Below the pieces are notes generated by a model that was given only the letters and a program-made list of their open reading frames with translations, was not told the DNA's origin and did not search any database. Shown here piece by piece: positions 32,352-39,371 of a stretch of 64,000 nt of DNA (position 1 is the stretch's first letter; each line of letters starts with the position of its first letter). Position numbers and translations under genes: made by a program. Source of the stretch: Rubrobacter indicoceani (lineage in GTDB: Bacteria; Actinomycetota; Rubrobacteria; Rubrobacterales; Rubrobacteraceae); assembly GCF_003568865.1 (NCBI RefSeq), contig NZ_CP031115.1, forward strand, positions 1,302,001 through 1,366,000, given 5' to 3'.

Positions 32352-33830
32352 ATGAATATTCTCAGAAACAACCTTATCATCCTCGGTCTGGTCGTTGCGT
32401 TGCTCGCGGTGGCGGCGTATCTGATCTTTATCCGCCAGCCCGTTTCGCAGGCGACGCAGCTCGGCCTCGACCTCGAAGGCGGCGTGAGGGTGCAGCTTCA
32501 GGGTTTCAAGAACGACGGCACGGACGTAACAAGCGATGAGATGGCCCGCGCCATAGAGGTTATCCGCCAGCGCGTGGACAGCCTCGGCGTAACGGAGCCG
32601 GAGATCAGGCAGCAGGGGGCGAACGAAGCCCTTGTAGACATCCCCGGCATCACCGATTCGGATCAGGCGGTCGAGATCATCGGCCGGACGGCCCAGCTTG
32701 GCTTCTACCGGGTGATCTCATCCGACGCACAGCAGGCCGTCCCGGATGCGGAGGTGGAGGACGCCCGCGAAGAGCTGCGCGAGTCCCTGCGCGAGTCCAG
32801 CGACTTCGAGGAGGGTGAGACGAAAGTCCTTTTCGAAGAGACCCCGGACCCTTCGGGCAACGGCAACATCGTCGCCGGGTACATCGTCAGCGAGCAGCCG
32901 CAGCTCACCGGGGAGGCGATAGATTCAGCCTCGCTCGCCCGCGACCAGCAGGGAAGGCTCGAGGTCCAGATGAACCTGACCGGCCAGGGCGGGCGCGACT
33001 TCGGACAGCTCTCGCAGGACATCGTTCAGGGGGCTCTGGCCGAGGGCGCACCGGGGACGGGGCAGCTTGCCGTCGTGCTCGACGAAGACGTGGTGAGCGC
33101 GCCGACCGTGCAGGAGCCGATCCTCGGCGGTCAGGTTTCGATCAACAACACCTCAACGCCCGAGGGTCTGCCCGAGGATGAGGCCAGAGAACTGGAGGTC
33201 GTTCTCCAGACGGGCGCGCTGCCTATAAACATGGAGGTTCTCTCGGTGCAGTCCATCGGGCCGACGCTCGGGGCGGAGTCCTTGCGAAGCGGACTTCTGG
33301 CCGCGCTTGCGGGGCTGGCGTTCGTGCTGGTCTTCCTGACGTTCATCTACCGCGCGCTCGGCATCGTGGCGAGCCTTGCCCTGCTTATCTACGGGTTTCT
33401 TTTGTGGGGGATCATCGTCGCCGTGCCGATCACGATGACGCTTCCGGGCATCGCCGGGATCGTGCTCTCGGTCGGCGTTGCGGCGGACGCGAACATCGTT
33501 ATCTTTGAGCGCATAAAGGAGGAGGTGAGGGCCGGGAAGTCGGCTCGCGCGGCGATTCAGGCCGGTTATAGAAAGGGTTTCCGGGCGGTTCTGGACGGAA
33601 ACGTTACAACGCTTATCACCGCCGTGATCCTCTTTGCGCTCGCGAGCGCGCAGGTCCGGGGGTTCGCTGTTCTGCTCGCCATCGGGGTCCTGCTCTCGAT
33701 GTTCACGGCCATCGTGGTGACGCGCGCCCTGCTCGGCATCCTCGCCAGCCGGGGCATGAACATTTCGCCTTCGATGATGGGGGTTACAAAGCGGAGCATG
33801 GAGCGCGAGAACGCCGGTGACAAGGCATGA
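32352..33830 (+). CDS. secD: Protein translocase subunit SecD
   Basis: 492 residues, a membrane component that uses proton motive force to aid late steps of Sec export. Membrane helix 1 is at about 10-27. The large extracytoplasmic region begins LGLDLEGGVRVQLQ (the conserved D-L-x-G-G motif), with VEVIRQRVDSLGVTEPEI-like IEVIRQRVDSLGV. The RND-type membrane bundle starts QSIGPTLGAESLRSGLLAA and contains GIVLSVGVAADANIVIFERIKEE. An acidic insertion near 137-160 (DAEVEDAREELRESLRE) lengthens the periplasmic part. yajC, usually between tgt and secD, is absent. secF overlaps the stop (ATGA). Confidence 0.97.
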   Translation: MNILRNNLIILGLVVALLAVAAYLIFIRQPVSQATQLGLDLEGGVRVQLQGFKNDGTDVTSDEMARAIEVIRQRVDSLGVTEPEIRQQGANEALVDIPGITDSDQAVEIIGRTAQLGFYRVISSDAQQAVPDAEVEDAREELRESLRESSDFEEGETKVLFEETPDPSGNGNIVAGYIVSEQPQLTGEAIDSASLARDQQGRLEVQMNLTGQGGRDFGQLSQDIVQGALAEGAPGTGQLAVVLDEDVVSAPTVQEPILGGQVSINNTSTPEGLPEDEARELEVVLQTGALPINMEVLSVQSIGPTLGAESLRSGLLAALAGLAFVLVFLTFIYRALGIVASLALLIYGFLLWGIIVAVPITMTLPGIAGIVLSVGVAADANIVIFERIKEEVRAGKSARAAIQAGYRKGFRAVLDGNVTTLITAVILFALASAQVRGFAVLLAIGVLLSMFTAIVVTRALLGILASRGMNISPSMMGVTKRSMERENAGDKA

Positions 33831-34765
33831 TGGAGCGTCTTCGGAAAATAGATTTCGCCCGGGGCTGGAAGATGTGGTTCGCGCTCTCCGGGTTCATTCT
33901 CGTGCTCGGCCTCGGGGCCATCGCGCTCGGCAACCTGAACTTCGGGATAGATTTCCAGGGCGGGGCGCAGTTCACCGCAACGGGGGCACAGAACAACCTC
34001 GACGAGGACGAGCTGCGGCAGGAGTTGCCGGCGTCCGTGCGGCAGGACGCCCTTATACAGAGCCTCGGTCAGAACGGCTACGAGGTCAGGACGCCGGTCG
34101 TGGAGCAGCAGGAGTCCTCCGAGGTGCGCGACGCGATAGCCGGGGCTACGGACGCGGAGGTAAGCGTTAATTCGATCAGCCCGAGCTTCGGGGAACAGAT
34201 AAGAAACCAGGCTCTCTCGGCGGTCGCTGCCTCGTTGCTCATCGTCGTGATCTTTATAACCATTCGCTTTGAGTTCGCCTACGCCGTCGCCGCCCTTGCG
34301 GCCCTCCTGCACGACATCTTTATCACCATCGGGTTCTACGCCATAGTCGGTCGGGAGGTGAACCTCGTAACGGTCGTCGCGGTGCTTACGGTGCTCGGCT
34401 ACTCGCTCTACGATACGATCATCATCTTCGACAGGGTCCGGGAGAACACGCCGGAACTCGGCTACCGGCGCGACCGCTTCGAGAACATGGTCAACGTATC
34501 CATTCTGCAGGTGATAAGGCGTTCGCTCTACACGGCTATCTCCACTCTCATCCCGGTCATCGCTCTGCTCGTGTTCGGAGAGACAGTTCTCTCAGACTTT
34601 GCTTTCGCTCTTCTGGTCGGGATAGCCGCCGGGACTTACAGTTCCATCTTTATCGCCTCGCCCGTCCTATGTCTGTACAAAGCGTGGAGCGAGCCGCGCA
34701 AGGCTCGCCGCGAGGCTGAAGAACAGCGTCGTCCGAAACGGTCTTCGGGCGAGCCGCAGGTGTAG
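33827..34765 (+). CDS. secF: Protein translocase subunit SecF
   Basis: 312 residues. N-terminal membrane helix (about 15-35), then the LNFGIDFQGGAQFTATG motif equivalent to D-F-x-G-G. The C-terminal bundle has QAL-like helices with LVTVVAVLTVLGYSLYDTIIIFDRVRENTPEL, and RRSLYTAISTLIPVIALLVFG. The Arg/Lys-rich tail lies in the cytoplasm. It works as a complex with SecD, with which its ATG overlaps by four bases. It is the last gene of the queA-tgt-secDF run. Confidence 0.97.
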   Translation: MMERLRKIDFARGWKMWFALSGFILVLGLGAIALGNLNFGIDFQGGAQFTATGAQNNLDEDELRQELPASVRQDALIQSLGQNGYEVRTPVVEQQESSEVRDAIAGATDAEVSVNSISPSFGEQIRNQALSAVAASLLIVVIFITIRFEFAYAVAALAALLHDIFITIGFYAIVGREVNLVTVVAVLTVLGYSLYDTIIIFDRVRENTPELGYRRDRFENMVNVSILQVIRRSLYTAISTLIPVIALLVFGETVLSDFAFALLVGIAAGTYSSIFIASPVLCLYKAWSEPRKARREAEEQRRPKRSSGEPQV

Positions 34766-34852
34766 TCGGTTCCACTACAGACCCTCCGGTTTCCGTTTGT
34801 GTAATAGTATTTCCTTGAAGTGTCTCTATCCGCAATTTGTAAGAGGGTCCGG

Positions 34853-35542
34853 TTGGGCGCGCTGAAAAGAGAATTTCTGGAAGTGTTTTACGCCGTCTTG
34901 CCGATCATCTTCGTGATAGCACTGTTGCAGGTTTCTCTGATCCACATGCCCCTGGCCGATTTCTTTCAGTTTTTGCTGGCCGCTACCATGACCATAGTCG
35001 GTCTGGCGTTGTTCCTCTTCGGCGTGAAGCTCGGTCTTCTGCCGCTTGGCGAGTCACTGGGCTCGTACCTGCCGAGCAGAGGGTTCGTCCTTATCCTCCT
35101 TTTCGGGTTTCTGCTCGGGTTCGTCATAACGGTGGCCGAGCCGGACGTGCGTATCTTTGCCTCCCAGATCAACGACGCCTCCGAAGGCCTCACCTCCGAG
35201 AACCTGCTGATTTACTCGATCTCGCTCGGGGTCGGGATCTCGGTGGTAGTCGCGATGATCAGGACGGTTTTCGACCTGCGTCTGATCCACATCCTCATTC
35301 CCTGCTACGTCGTCGTGTTCACCCTGAGCTTCTTTGTGCCGGAGGACTATTTCTCTATCGCGTTCGACGCCGGGGGCGTTACGACGGGGCCGATCACCGT
35401 TCCTTTCCTGATCGCCTTGAACGTCGGCGTCGTCTCGGTTCTGGCCGGACGCAACGGGGTCTCGCAGGGGTTCGGGCTTGTGGCGCTCGCTTCGATAGGG
35501 CCGATCATCGCCGTAATGATTCTGGGGGTGCTTTTTAGTTGA
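34853..35542 (+). CDS. DUF1538 membrane protein, first copy
   Basis: 229 residues with six to seven predicted membrane helices. DUF1538 features are FLFGVKLGLLPLGESLGSYL, FVITVAEPDVRIFASQ (acidic residues within a helix), and AFDAGGVTTGPITVPF, a re-entrant-loop-like Gly-rich motif. The family is uncharacterised; the broken helices and E-P/D-A-G-G motifs look transporter-like. The TTG at 34853 has AGAGGG five bases before it and is chosen; an in-frame GTG at 34820 near a TAATAG could be a leaderless alternative. The second DUF1538 gene overlaps its stop. Confidence 0.85.
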   Translation: MGALKREFLEVFYAVLPIIFVIALLQVSLIHMPLADFFQFLLAATMTIVGLALFLFGVKLGLLPLGESLGSYLPSRGFVLILLFGFLLGFVITVAEPDVRIFASQINDASEGLTSENLLIYSISLGVGISVVVAMIRTVFDLRLIHILIPCYVVVFTLSFFVPEDYFSIAFDAGGVTTGPITVPFLIALNVGVVSVLAGRNGVSQGFGLVALASIGPIIAVMILGVLFS

Positions 35543-36318
35543 ATCCTCTTCGCGTCTTCGACGGCTACCCGGAGACCTTGCTGGAAGTGCTCTTCGCACT
35601 CGCTCCGCTGCTCGTTTTACTTCTCGTATTTCAGGGGATCGCCGGTCGGTCGGCCCTGCCGAACCTGCCGAGAATGCTCATGGGTATCGTACTGAGCATT
35701 TTCGGTCTATCGCTGTTTTTGCAGGGAGTTCATGTCGGGTTCCTTCCCTTCGGGGAGTTCACCGGGGCTGTTTTGAGCAGCGTGAGCTACAGTTGGATCT
35801 TGATCCCGGTCGGCTTCGTCCTGGGGTTCGCCTCGATCATCGCGGAACCTGCCGTGCGTGTCTTGAACTACGAGGTCGAGAAATTATCCACCGGCTCCAT
35901 ACGAAGCACGCCGATACTGATCACGCTCGCCGTCGGCGTCGGCTTCGCGGTCGCCCTTGCGATGGCGAGGATACTTTACGGGATCCCGCTGTGGGGGATA
36001 CTCGTTCCGGGCTACCTTCTCGCCTTTGCTCTGACCTGGTTTTCGTCGGATACCTTTACCTCCATCGCCTTCGACTCGGGTGGTGTGGCGACAGGCCCGA
36101 TGACCGTCACGTTCATACTCTCCCTTGCCGTGGGGGCTGCGACGGGCCTTGAAGGGCGGGACCCGGTGGTCGAAGGCTTCGGGCTTGTCGCCCTGGTGGC
36201 ACTTGCCCCCATACTGGCCGTCCTTATCCTGGGGATTATCTATAGAATCCAGGAAGGCGGAAGCAACCCGACACCCGAAAAGGAGGAGCAACGAGTTGAG
36301 ACCTCTGGCGGAGCTTGA
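35539..36318 (+). CDS. DUF1538 membrane protein, second copy
   Basis: 259 residues, a paralogue of the preceding protein with the same landmarks: FLQGVHVGFLPFGEFTG, ASIIAEPAVRVLNYEVE and AFDSGGVATGPMTVTFIL. Seven or so membrane helices are followed by a charged tail (QEGGSNPTPEKEEQRVET). The TTG start overlaps the first copy by four bases. Two adjacent half-sized paralogues suggest an obligate heterodimer; in other genomes DUF1538 can be a single long protein (recalled, not checked). The 3' end overlaps the PII-like gene by 23 bases. Confidence 0.88.
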   Translation: MNPLRVFDGYPETLLEVLFALAPLLVLLLVFQGIAGRSALPNLPRMLMGIVLSIFGLSLFLQGVHVGFLPFGEFTGAVLSSVSYSWILIPVGFVLGFASIIAEPAVRVLNYEVEKLSTGSIRSTPILITLAVGVGFAVALAMARILYGIPLWGILVPGYLLAFALTWFSSDTFTSIAFDSGGVATGPMTVTFILSLAVGAATGLEGRDPVVEGFGLVALVALAPILAVLILGIIYRIQEGGSNPTPEKEEQRVETSGGA

Positions 36319-36631
36319 CCTGATAGTGACGATAATCCCGAAAGGTCAGTCAGACAAAGTCGTCGCGGCCTCCAAGCGGGCGGGAGCCGAGGGAGGGACC
36401 ATACTCTACGGGCGCGGAACGGGCATACACGAACACAAGAAGCTCTTCGGCCTCTCCATAGAGCCGGAGAAGGAGATCATCCTGACGCTCGTCCCCGAGC
36501 ACAAGACGGATGAGATTCTGGAGGCCATAGTGAAGGCCGGACAACTCGACAAGCCCGGCACCGGCGTCGGTTTCGTGCTGGAGGCGAGAAAGATAGTCGG
36601 TATAAACCACCTGATCGAGGCGATGCGGTAA
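36296..36631 (+). CDS. PII-family signal protein linked to DUF1538
   Basis: 111 residues matching the PII fold: start LAELDLIVTIIPKGQSDKVV, core EKEIILTLVPEHKTDEILEAIV, end GFVLEARKIVGINHLIEAM. Classical GlnB/GlnK marks are missing. The T-loop segment reads GRGTGIHEHKKLFGLSIEPE, without the modified Tyr-51 site, and the B-loop is LDKPGTGVGFV rather than TGKIGDGKIFV. It is therefore a diverged PII-like regulator that may bind a nucleotide and control the DUF1538 pair. AAAGGAGG lies upstream of the TTG start. The frame is open much further upstream, inside the DUF1538 gene. Confidence 0.87.
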   Translation: MRPLAELDLIVTIIPKGQSDKVVAASKRAGAEGGTILYGRGTGIHEHKKLFGLSIEPEKEIILTLVPEHKTDEILEAIVKAGQLDKPGTGVGFVLEARKIVGINHLIEAMR

Positions 36632-36771
36632 TGGAATCGTGCCGCCTCGGAGTCGTTGATGCCGGTAGCGAGTAGGAACAGAAAGAAGGTCTTTCTTGTG
36701 GAGGCCGGAAAGAGGCCCGCAAGCGAGCCTGCAAGGACCGCCGGGGGAGAACGAGTATCCAGACCCTTCGT

Positions 36772-37683
36772 TCAGGAAGGGTGGATCAAGACCGATCCGC
36801 GGGCGGCTCTCAGCACCTTTGTCGAGACGCTGCCGAGCCTGAGACGGTCGAGCACACCGAGGCCCCGGCTTCCGACCGCTATCAAAGCTGACCCACCGCA
36901 CTCGTTGCTTTCTTCAGCGGCTTTAAGAATTACTGAGGCCGCGTCCCCTTCCCGGACGCTGACGCGCGGGCGGAGCCCGAACCTCTTCTCCAGCGCGTCC
37001 GCCCGCTGATTCAGAGTCAGCTCATGGCGACCTAGCGAGACTTCTGGCGACACCGCCGCAGTCTCCCTGAACCTCCCTGCCTCTGACGCGTCAACGAATA
37101 CGTGGTGTACGCGCAAGAGCAGCATCTGTATTCCCAGTACGCTTGCGATGGCGCCCGCCAGCTCTCCGGTTCTTTTCGCGCCCGCTGAGGTATCGTCGCC
37201 GACGATCACGTGGGAGGGCGGCCACGCCCGGTCACCACCCCGCACCACAAGAACCGGACGGGAAGCGAGGCCGACGACACCCTCGGAGACGCTTCCCACA
37301 ACGAGCCGCCGGATCGTTCCGAGACCCCGGCTGCCCGTGATGATCAGCCCCGCGCCAAGTTCGTCCGCCAGGACGGCGATTCTCGTGGACGGTCTTCCCC
37401 GGAGGAGGTGGGCACCCGCTGCGGTTCCTCCGGCTGCATACAGCGCATCCAGTTGCTGAAATAGAACTTTCCGGGCGTCCTCTTCACAGACGCCGGAGTC
37501 CGTCGCCATCGCGATGGCCGGATGGGAGTAGGGCGGGGCGGCCTGCCAGGCGTGGGCCAAGTGCAACTCTGAATCGGCTTTGTTTGTGAGATCCACCGCC
37601 GCCCGCAGGGCGAGTGTCGCATCTTCGGAGTCGCTAACGGCTAGCAGAACCTTTCGTGAAAATCCGCTATCCGGATGCGTCAT
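36772..37683 (-). CDS. Tandem universal stress protein (UspA family)
   Basis: 303 residues with two Usp domains. The first (about 8-148) has VLLAVSDSEDATLALRAA and the nucleotide-binding ITGSRGLGTIRRLVVGSVSEGV. The second (about 157-303) has VIVGDDTSAGAKRT and AVGSRGLGVLDRLRLGSVSTKVL. Both carry a G-x2-G-x9-G-S/T ATP-binding motif. The start overlaps the end of khtU by 17 bases, so it is the last gene of khtT-khtU-uspA. Usp domains are common partners of ion antiporters. The 140 bases between it and the convergent PII gene include only a weak AT-rich hairpin (36681-36697). Confidence 0.92.
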   Translation of the reverse strand: MTHPDSGFSRKVLLAVSDSEDATLALRAAVDLTNKADSELHLAHAWQAAPPYSHPAIAMATDSGVCEEDARKVLFQQLDALYAAGGTAAGAHLLRGRPSTRIAVLADELGAGLIITGSRGLGTIRRLVVGSVSEGVVGLASRPVLVVRGGDRAWPPSHVIVGDDTSAGAKRTGELAGAIASVLGIQMLLLRVHHVFVDASEAGRFRETAAVSPEVSLGRHELTLNQRADALEKRFGLRPRVSVREGDAASVILKAAEESNECGGSALIAVGSRGLGVLDRLRLGSVSTKVLRAARGSVLIHPS

Positions 37684-38878
37684 CTGCGGCTTTCTCGCGG
37701 CTGAAAGCTTTGCTTACGAGGCCGAATATCCTCCCGGACTCCTTTGTGAGCAGCGGACCCAAGAGCGAGAGGATCAGGACGTAGAGGGCCGCGAAGGGTT
37801 GGATCAGGCCCGAAAGCCCGCCGCCGATGGCCAGGCTCGCGACGATTATCGAAAACTCCCCGCGCGAGACTATCGTAAGCCCGACGTTCGCCGAAGCCCG
37901 GCTCGAAAGCCCGGCGTTACGGCCTGCGATCATCCCCGCAACGAAGTTTCCAGCGATGGTCAGCACGACGGCCAGAACAGACAGCAGGGCCGCGTCGAGC
38001 AGCGTGAGCGGGTCTATGCTCAGGCCGAAGCTGAAAAAGAAGATCGCCCCGAAGAAGTCCCGGAACGGGATCACGAGCCGCTCTATCCGCTGCCGGTGTT
38101 CGGTCTCGGAGAGAACGAGGCCGAGTAACAAGGCCCCGATGGCCTCCGCGACGTGCAGCGTCTCCGAGAAACCCGCTACAAAGAACAGCGCGGCGAAAAC
38201 CACGAGGATAAACGTCTCCGACGAGCGGATGTCGAGAACGCGATTCAAAAACGGTGAAGCCTTCCTCGCCAGGACAAAGAAGAGCAGGATATAGCCGAGG
38301 ACGATGAGCATCGTGATTATGGTTCCGCCGACAGAACCGCCCTCCGAGAGTACGAGGCCGGAGAGAATGGACAGGTAGACGGCCAGGAAGATGTCCTCGA
38401 ACATGATGATGCCGAGGATCATCTCCGTCTCCGGGTTCGCGGTTCGCCTCAGATCCACGAGCATCTTTGCGACTATCGCGCTCGATGAGATCGTAATGAT
38501 TCCAGCCACGATCAGTATCTCAGCTAGCTGAAACCCGGCGAGCCAGCCGAAGAGGAGGCCCAGGGTGAAGTTTATGCCGATGTATACGGAGCCGCCGACC
38601 GCAATGGATCTGCCGGAGTTGATGAGCCTTCCGATAGAAAACTCCAGCCCCAGATAGAAGAGCAGGAACAGCACCCCGACCCTTCCGAGAAACTGGAGCA
38701 GGTCATAGCTCTCTTCGAAGCCGAGGTCGAGCGGGCCGATGGCGGGGATGTGCGGCCCGACCACCATCCCGATGATGATCAGGAACGGAACGTTTGAGAA
38801 CTTGAAGCGGTTTGCGAGCAGTGTGGCGACCGCCGCGAGAACCAGCGCCGCCCCGACCTCGAATACGAGGTGATCCAA
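37667..38878 (-). CDS. khtU: Potassium/proton antiporter, CPA2 family (KhtU-like)
   Basis: 403 residues with about 12 membrane helices. CPA2 motifs are FLIIIGMVVGPHIPAIG, VGVLFLLFYLGLEFSIGRL, SSSAIVAKMLVDL, MFEDIFLAVYLSIL with the ion-binding acidic residue, and SRGEFSIIVASLAIG. KhtU exports potassium (or ammonium) in exchange for protons under control of KhtT. The TTG at 38878 follows the khtT stop by one base and yields the usual N-terminus; the longer open frame upstream is khtT in another phase. No RCK/TrkA-N domain is fused at the C-terminus. Confidence 0.92.
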   Translation of the reverse strand: MDHLVFEVGAALVLAAVATLLANRFKFSNVPFLIIIGMVVGPHIPAIGPLDLGFEESYDLLQFLGRVGVLFLLFYLGLEFSIGRLINSGRSIAVGGSVYIGINFTLGLLFGWLAGFQLAEILIVAGIITISSSAIVAKMLVDLRRTANPETEMILGIIMFEDIFLAVYLSILSGLVLSEGGSVGGTIITMLIVLGYILLFFVLARKASPFLNRVLDIRSSETFILVVFAALFFVAGFSETLHVAEAIGALLLGLVLSETEHRQRIERLVIPFRDFFGAIFFFSFGLSIDPLTLLDAALLSVLAVVLTIAGNFVAGMIAGRNAGLSSRASANVGLTIVSRGEFSIIVASLAIGGGLSGLIQPFAALYVLILSLLGPLLTKESGRIFGLVSKAFSREKAADDASG

Positions 38879-38879
38879 G

Positions 38880-39371
38880 CTAGCTTCGGTCCGCTGTGAG
38901 TGCGGCCTGAAAACCTGCCACCTGCTCACGCTCCCCGGCCACCACCAGCGTTGTTCCGCTCCTGATGGATACCTCCGGTCCGGGGTTGATGATCTGCTCG
39001 CCATCGCCGATCACCGCCACGATAGTAGCCCCGAAGTTCTTCCGAACTCCAAGCTCACCGATCGTGCTGCCCTCCGCTCGCGAACCCTCCTCTACCTTGT
39101 GCCACTCGATGACCAGGGCATCGAAGGCCATCTCGACCCTCTCCAGCGCGCGCGGCGTGTAGACCATCCCGCCCACTATTCCGGCAAGCTGCCGGGCCTC
39201 GTCGTCGTCGAGGTCGAAGGAAGCGATGCTCTCGTCGAGGTCCTTCCGGTCGAACTGGTAGATTTCACGCCGCCCCTCGTCGTGTATCACCACCACGATC
39301 CTCTCTCCGCTCCGAAGATCGGCCTGAAACTTCCTGCCGATGCCCGGCAACTGCGTCTCTCTTACGTTCAA
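38880..39371 (-). CDS. khtT: Antiporter regulatory subunit with RCK-C domain (KhtT-like)
   Basis: 163 residues very similar in plan to B. subtilis KhtT. The N-terminal domain reads RETQLPGIGRKFQ, IVVVIHDEGRREIYQF and DDDEARQLAGIVGGMVYTPRAL. The RCK-C/TrkA-C domain (about 80-160) has LVIEWHKVEEGS, STIGELGVRKNFGATIVAVI and TLVVAGEREQVAGF. In Firmicutes KhtT gates KhtU and binds the second messenger c-di-AMP; conservation of that binding here is unknown. The TTG start has AAGGAGG upstream, and TATATT on the minus strand near 39400 is a possible -10. Confidence 0.92.
   Translation of the reverse strand: MNVRETQLPGIGRKFQADLRSGERIVVVIHDEGRREIYQFDRKDLDESIASFDLDDDEARQLAGIVGGMVYTPRALERVEMAFDALVIEWHKVEEGSRAEGSTIGELGVRKNFGATIVAVIGDGEQIINPGPEVSIRSGTTLVVAGEREQVAGFQAALTADRS

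Follow-up and report, generated by a model that had tools for sequence, protein, structure and literature searches.

PII proteins are usually read as regulators of nitrogen and carbon metabolism, and some of them control transporters, as in the GlnK-AmtB and SbtB-SbtA systems. The DNA stretch analysed here, 64,000 nucleotides long and referred to as the window, carries at positions 34853-36631 of the + strand two DUF1538 membrane-protein genes followed by the gene for a diverged PII protein, as identified from open reading frame calls and Pfam. The sequence-only reading had proposed that these genes encode a PII-gated transport system of unknown substrate. What does the membrane pair carry, and is the PII protein its regulator?

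Gene overlaps and the DUF1538 membrane pair

The umpA-like gene (34853..35542, + strand) and the umpB-like gene (35539..36318, + strand) each encode a DUF1538 (PF07556) protein, and the PII-fold gene (PF00543; 36296..36631, + strand) encodes 111 residues; the latter two genes start with TTG. The start of the umpA-like gene is uncertain and lies either at TTG 34853, which has GAGGG 5 nt upstream, or at GTG 34820, which gives the longest frame. All three frames claimed by the sequence-only reading are present, and so are both overlaps, one of 4 nt (35539-35542) between the DUF1538 genes and one of 23 nt (36296-36318) between the umpB-like gene and the PII gene. The same reading had offered TAGAAT at 36243-36248, inside the second DUF1538 gene, as a possible promoter for separate PII expression. 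The hexamer exists, but a sigma-70 scan of 34500-36900 found no promoter-like site and no sigma-70-like pair there, and this candidate was set aside in favour of translational coupling. A strong AGGAGG Shine-Dalgarno sequence (36281..36286, + strand) stands within the umpB-like gene 9 nt before the PII start, which together with the overlap points to translational coupling rather than an internal promoter.

The genes secD and secF precede the module on the + strand (32352-34765), ending about 88 nt ahead of the probable umpA start, and may be co-transcribed with it. Downstream, a convergent cluster on the - strand (36772-39371) encodes a double universal stress protein, a CPA2 Na+/H+ exchanger (PF00999) and a TrkA-C protein. 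The arrangement resembles KhtT/KhtU and gives the ump-PII genes another cation/proton antiporter as their neighbour.

Each of the two membrane proteins matches PF07556 along its full length (235 and 236 bits, cut-off 22.6) and has seven hydrophobic peaks and seven predicted transmembrane helices. By the positive-inside rule the UmpA-like protein is predicted to be N-in and the UmpB-like protein N-out/C-in, and charge counts at 193 loci gave the same assignment, indicating inverted halves. Both proteins carry the two motifs that had been read from the window, and both motifs were also recognised in the family alignment: the E-P motif at 35138..35143 (UmpA-like, invariant) and 35845..35850 (UmpB-like), and the longer motif as F-D-A-G-G-V-T-T-G-P at 35363..35392 (UmpA-like) and F-D-S-G-G-V-A-T-G-P at 36070..36099 (UmpB-like), all on the + strand. 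Across an alignment of 34 fused homologues, E97/P98 and D175 of one half and E341/P342 and D417 of the other are invariant; an initial alignment that mixed single halves with fused proteins, in which the halves apparently fell on one repeat, was left out of the results. An AlphaFold2 model of a fused DUF1538 protein of 481 residues (L044; pLDDT 87.9, pTM 0.87) places E97-P98, D175, E341-P342 and D417 at or near predicted helix breaks, as is often the case for ion-binding residues. Sequence searches yielded no PDB relative of DUF1538 up to E 10, and no clear PDB fold match was obtained for the model, for which the best Foldseek hit had E 0.012 and probability 0.35 and the best VIA-align hits, CAT4 with Z 5.6 across 59 residues and NCX_Mj with Z 5.2 across 171, did not rise above the stated noise range. 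The lack of a clear match to this model suggests, rather than proves, that DUF1538 is a new fold.

The sole characterised DUF1538 pair is UmpAB of Halomonas zhaodongensis, a heterodimer discovered through complementation of E. coli KNabc that performs pH-dependent Na+(Li+,K+)/H+ antiport with an optimum at pH 9 and is active when umpAB alone is expressed; the paper makes no mention of PII (PMC5484666). To call the substrate of the window pair unknown was therefore too pessimistic, since a relative is a characterised antiporter. Like UmpAB, the window genes form two adjacent overlapping paralogues of about seven transmembrane helices each. The first window protein scores 134 bits against the UmpA model (NF041627) and the second 102 bits against the UmpB model (NF041628), where the equivalog cut-offs are 490 and 500. 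By sequence the window pair are thus relatives of UmpA and UmpB and not certified equivalog members, and at this distance the ion carried by UmpAB is no certain guide to theirs. None of the sampled genomes exceeded the UmpA cut-off, the top match being 416 bits in a locus with PII (L201), nor did any plasmid.

The same PII-gated complex might move an anion, an organic solute or a metal through the DUF1538 pair, a possibility to which we give rather low odds. Just one DUF1538 pair has been assayed so far, the window pair falls far under both cut-offs, and its motifs read GGVTTGP and GGVATGP as opposed to GGVTTST in many proteobacterial UmpAB-like pairs. The E-P and F-D elements are nevertheless invariant across both motif types, and the adjacent convergent cluster likewise encodes a cation/proton antiporter. 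Cation exchange is also favoured by a 2026 machine-learning model of growth pH in which DUF1538 is among the key features (PMC13255231).

A PII protein that has lost the classical contacts

The window PII protein scores 33 bits against PF00543 (cut-off 25), and its nearest named matches come from Rubrobacter metagenome-assembled genomes, with 90% identity over PII. Its AlphaFold2 model has a PII fold (pLDDT 85, pTM 0.79). Foldseek ranked GlnK/PII chains highest, among them the AmtB-bound GlnK 2ns1, with SbtB and CPII lower, and VIA-align scored PII and CutA1 chains equally, at Z about 10-11. The protein has Phe in place of the uridylylation Tyr, as had been recognised from the letters, and among 272 relatives the Tyr51 position holds F, L or M, with Y in <1%. 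The accompanying claim that the classical B-loop is absent stands in part: its residues are replaced, but the two Gly of GxG are kept in P-G-T-G (36554..36565, + strand), with Val as the Lys90 equivalent. The T-loop carries the signature G-R-G-T-G-I-H-E...I-E-P-E-K-E, aligned at 36410..36475 (+ strand), which has no Tyr51 equivalent.

The losses extend to the 2-OG/ATP residues that define GlnB/GlnK, from which the protein departs: R38, Q39, K58, K90, R101 and R103 correspond to I44, H45, E58, V91, G102 and N104. In the 272 relatives R38 is replaced by I, V or L, Q39 mostly by H, K58 by E or Q, K90 by I, V or L, and R101 by G. The clade conserves instead G-R-G-x-G-I-H-E in the T-loop, I-E-P-E-K-E at the T-loop end, P-G-x-G in the B-loop and a C-terminal G-x-x-H. 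Since the pocket keeps its Gly-rich parts, it may bind a nucleotide-like ligand, though not through the classical contacts, which are gone. The window PII is the sole PF00543 match in the 3.08-Mb genome, which has AmtB without GlnK, and it is therefore not a spare copy of GlnB/GlnK.

Conserved linkage of DUF1538 and PII

If the three genes form one system, their association should recur elsewhere, and a lack of conserved linkage in other lineages had been named as grounds for abandoning the idea. Searches that started from DUF1538 gave 159 distinct modules that were not truncated, from Actinomycetota, Pseudomonadota, Bacillota and archaea, and 156 of them had PII after DUF1538; these modules are the seeded loci minus duplicates and fragments, a sample biased towards the best-scoring locus per genome and offset by an added set of divergent Pseudomonadota. 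Among loci with enough flanking sequence, PII was found at 25/25 in Actinomycetota, 30/30 in the Bacillota-type phylum, 29/30 in archaea, 30/30 top-scoring and 24/26 divergent Pseudomonadota, and 48/49 UmpA-like loci. Starting from PII, with one genome per species, DUF1538 lay directly upstream on the same strand in 79 of 80 loci spanning Bacillota, methanogens, Chloroflexi, Actinomycetota, Pseudomonadota, Balneolales and others; the exception (L080) begins at a contig end 40 nt before the PII match. With one or a few PF00543 genes in a genome of thousands of genes, the two would be expected side by side by chance in well under 1% of cases. DUF1538 itself occurred in 18/296 genomes sampled from the window's phylum, 126/398 from Pseudomonadota, 84/249 from the Bacillota-type phylum and 33/197 from the archaeal phylum. 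Named plasmid records show the same gene order, with the PII gene annotated as "P-II family nitrogen regulator".

Three of the 159 modules have no PII gene (L143, L189 and L277). Two of them (L143, L189) are GGVTTST-type pairs, and the L189 genome contains other DUF1538 modules. The third, an archaeal pair (L277:3-572, - strand), has a TnpB-like transposon frame downstream, perhaps a recent disruption.

The survey covered both the co-occurrence and the fusion of the two halves that the sequence-only reading had called for, and both were seen. The 233 distinct modules comprised 141 pairs with one PII, 29 pairs with two PII, 18 fused DUF1538 proteins with one PII and 24 with two, one fused protein with three PII domains, and 20 single or cut DUF1538 genes with PII. 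From the last DUF1538 stop to the PII start the median distance was -4 nt, with overlap in 132 of 228 cases and a distance within 50 nt in 210 of 228. One locus (L292:1094-3043, - strand) joins UmpA, UmpB and PII in a single 650-codon frame, the PII domain being recognised at E 7e-12; with one record only, an assembly error is possible. The C-in charge pattern of UmpB would place the C-terminal PII of this fusion in the cytosol. PII also occurs as covalent multimers, as PII-PII and, in L227:1267-2481 (- strand), as a 405-residue frame of three tandem PII-like domains after a 739-residue fused DUF1538 protein, which suggests a PII trimer with covalently joined units. UmpB and PII sequence distances were correlated (Mantel r 0.85, permuted maximum 0.05), as would be the case for genes that descend or move between genomes as one cassette; with species ancestry uncontrolled, this lends weak support.

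In Rubrobacter relatives (L003, L056, L094-L098) a single DUF1538 gene has its own PII, and in L003 and L056 this arrangement directly follows a pair with PII; such single halves may work as homodimers. In some proteobacteria (L293:1199-8289, - strand, and L290) two different DUF1538-PII modules lie side by side.

The linkage seen from both sides and across domains, together with the in-frame fusion in L292, strongly supports a PII-linked transport system, and it is evidence of functional coupling, not of direct contact. It also bears on whether the window PII could be an ordinary nitrogen regulator of the GlnB/GlnK type that sits in this operon by chance. The match to PF00543 and the annotation of its relatives' records agree with such a regulator, but the near-constant linkage in both directions and the unconserved equivalents of Tyr51, R38, Q39, K58, K90, R101 and R103 contradict it, and we regard it as very improbable. 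The PII labelled as a nitrogen regulator is more likely the built-in control switch of an ion exchanger.

Proposed function and known PII systems

We put at roughly 60% the probability that the module is an UmpAB-type cation/proton antiporter putatively bound and gated by a dedicated PII trimer. The two DUF1538 proteins would form an UmpAB-type heterodimer of inverted 7-TM halves that, as we infer from the one characterised relative, moves protons in exchange for a monovalent cation, whether Na+, K+ or Li+. A PII trimer would dock directly at the cytosolic face by the UmpB C-terminus, and binding of a small effector would change the T-loops so that PII binds or leaves UmpAB. Docking would set the exchange rate and so switch the exchanger on or off, much as GlnK acts on AmtB or SbtB on SbtA, with an unrelated transporter and a different effector site. 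PII is more likely to be a modulator than an obligatory subunit, since Halomonas umpAB was active in E. coli without supplied PII.

The flow of information could run the other way, with UmpAB recruiting and releasing PII as a cytosolic messenger that informs other targets of the ion or pH status. AmtB offers an analogy, for it sequesters GlnK and thereby changes soluble regulation, and the sole PII of a genome that has AmtB without GlnK could have other targets. A UmpA-UmpB-PII fusion is hard to square with free diffusion, however, and the 2-OG and uridylylation residues are lost, so that we hold this role to be improbable. Gating of the antiporter by PII remains our preferred reading.

A full-text search of open-access papers found no association of DUF1538 or UmpAB with PII; the leads that it gave to Borrelia BB0017 and a Caulobacter P-II protein proved unrelated. 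The UmpAB antiporter and PII-controlled transporters are each known, and their combination appears to be the new part within that literature. More tentatively, UmpAB antiporters at large may be three-part machines, in which inverted 7-TM halves, of a fold without a solved relative, work with a separate, widespread PII clade that has a new effector site, for example for AMP, c-di-AMP, a cation or pH. If gating holds, PII signalling would reach Na+/K+/pH homeostasis in bacteria and archaea, an antiporter family common in Pseudomonadota and Bacillota-type genomes would gain its missing regulator, and work on the membrane pair alone would observe unregulated transport. Were the three-part arrangement general, very many annotated P-II nitrogen regulators would be switches of pH and ion homeostasis.

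Compared with UmpAB, the window pair shares adjacent overlapping DUF1538 genes, seven transmembrane helices each and conserved acidic and Gly/Pro motifs, and differs in scoring 98-134 bits against the UmpA/UmpB models. The module has the conserved operon with a transporter that marks PII-gated transporters (156/159 modules and one natural fusion). As in GlnK-AmtB, a PII-fold protein shares an operon with a membrane transporter, and the 2ns1 GlnK is among its best fold matches, but the transporter is unrelated and the window PII has neither Tyr51 nor the classical 2-OG/ATP residues. Its T-loop is about 5 residues shorter than that of GlnK and may be unable to block a pore in the way that GlnK blocks AmtB. 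Altered ligand sites on a PII fold are also found in the c-di-AMP-binding PstA/DarA, which belong to another Pfam family, whereas the window protein matches PF00543 only; c-di-AMP has a role in K+ homeostasis. The SbtB-SbtA system resembles the module in having a dedicated PII-like partner of a transporter with a non-canonical effector site. It differs in that the window partner is DUF1538 and not SbtA, and the 111 residues contain no Cys, and hence neither the Cys pair nor the C-terminal redox R-loop that, with linkage to sbtA, defines SbtB.
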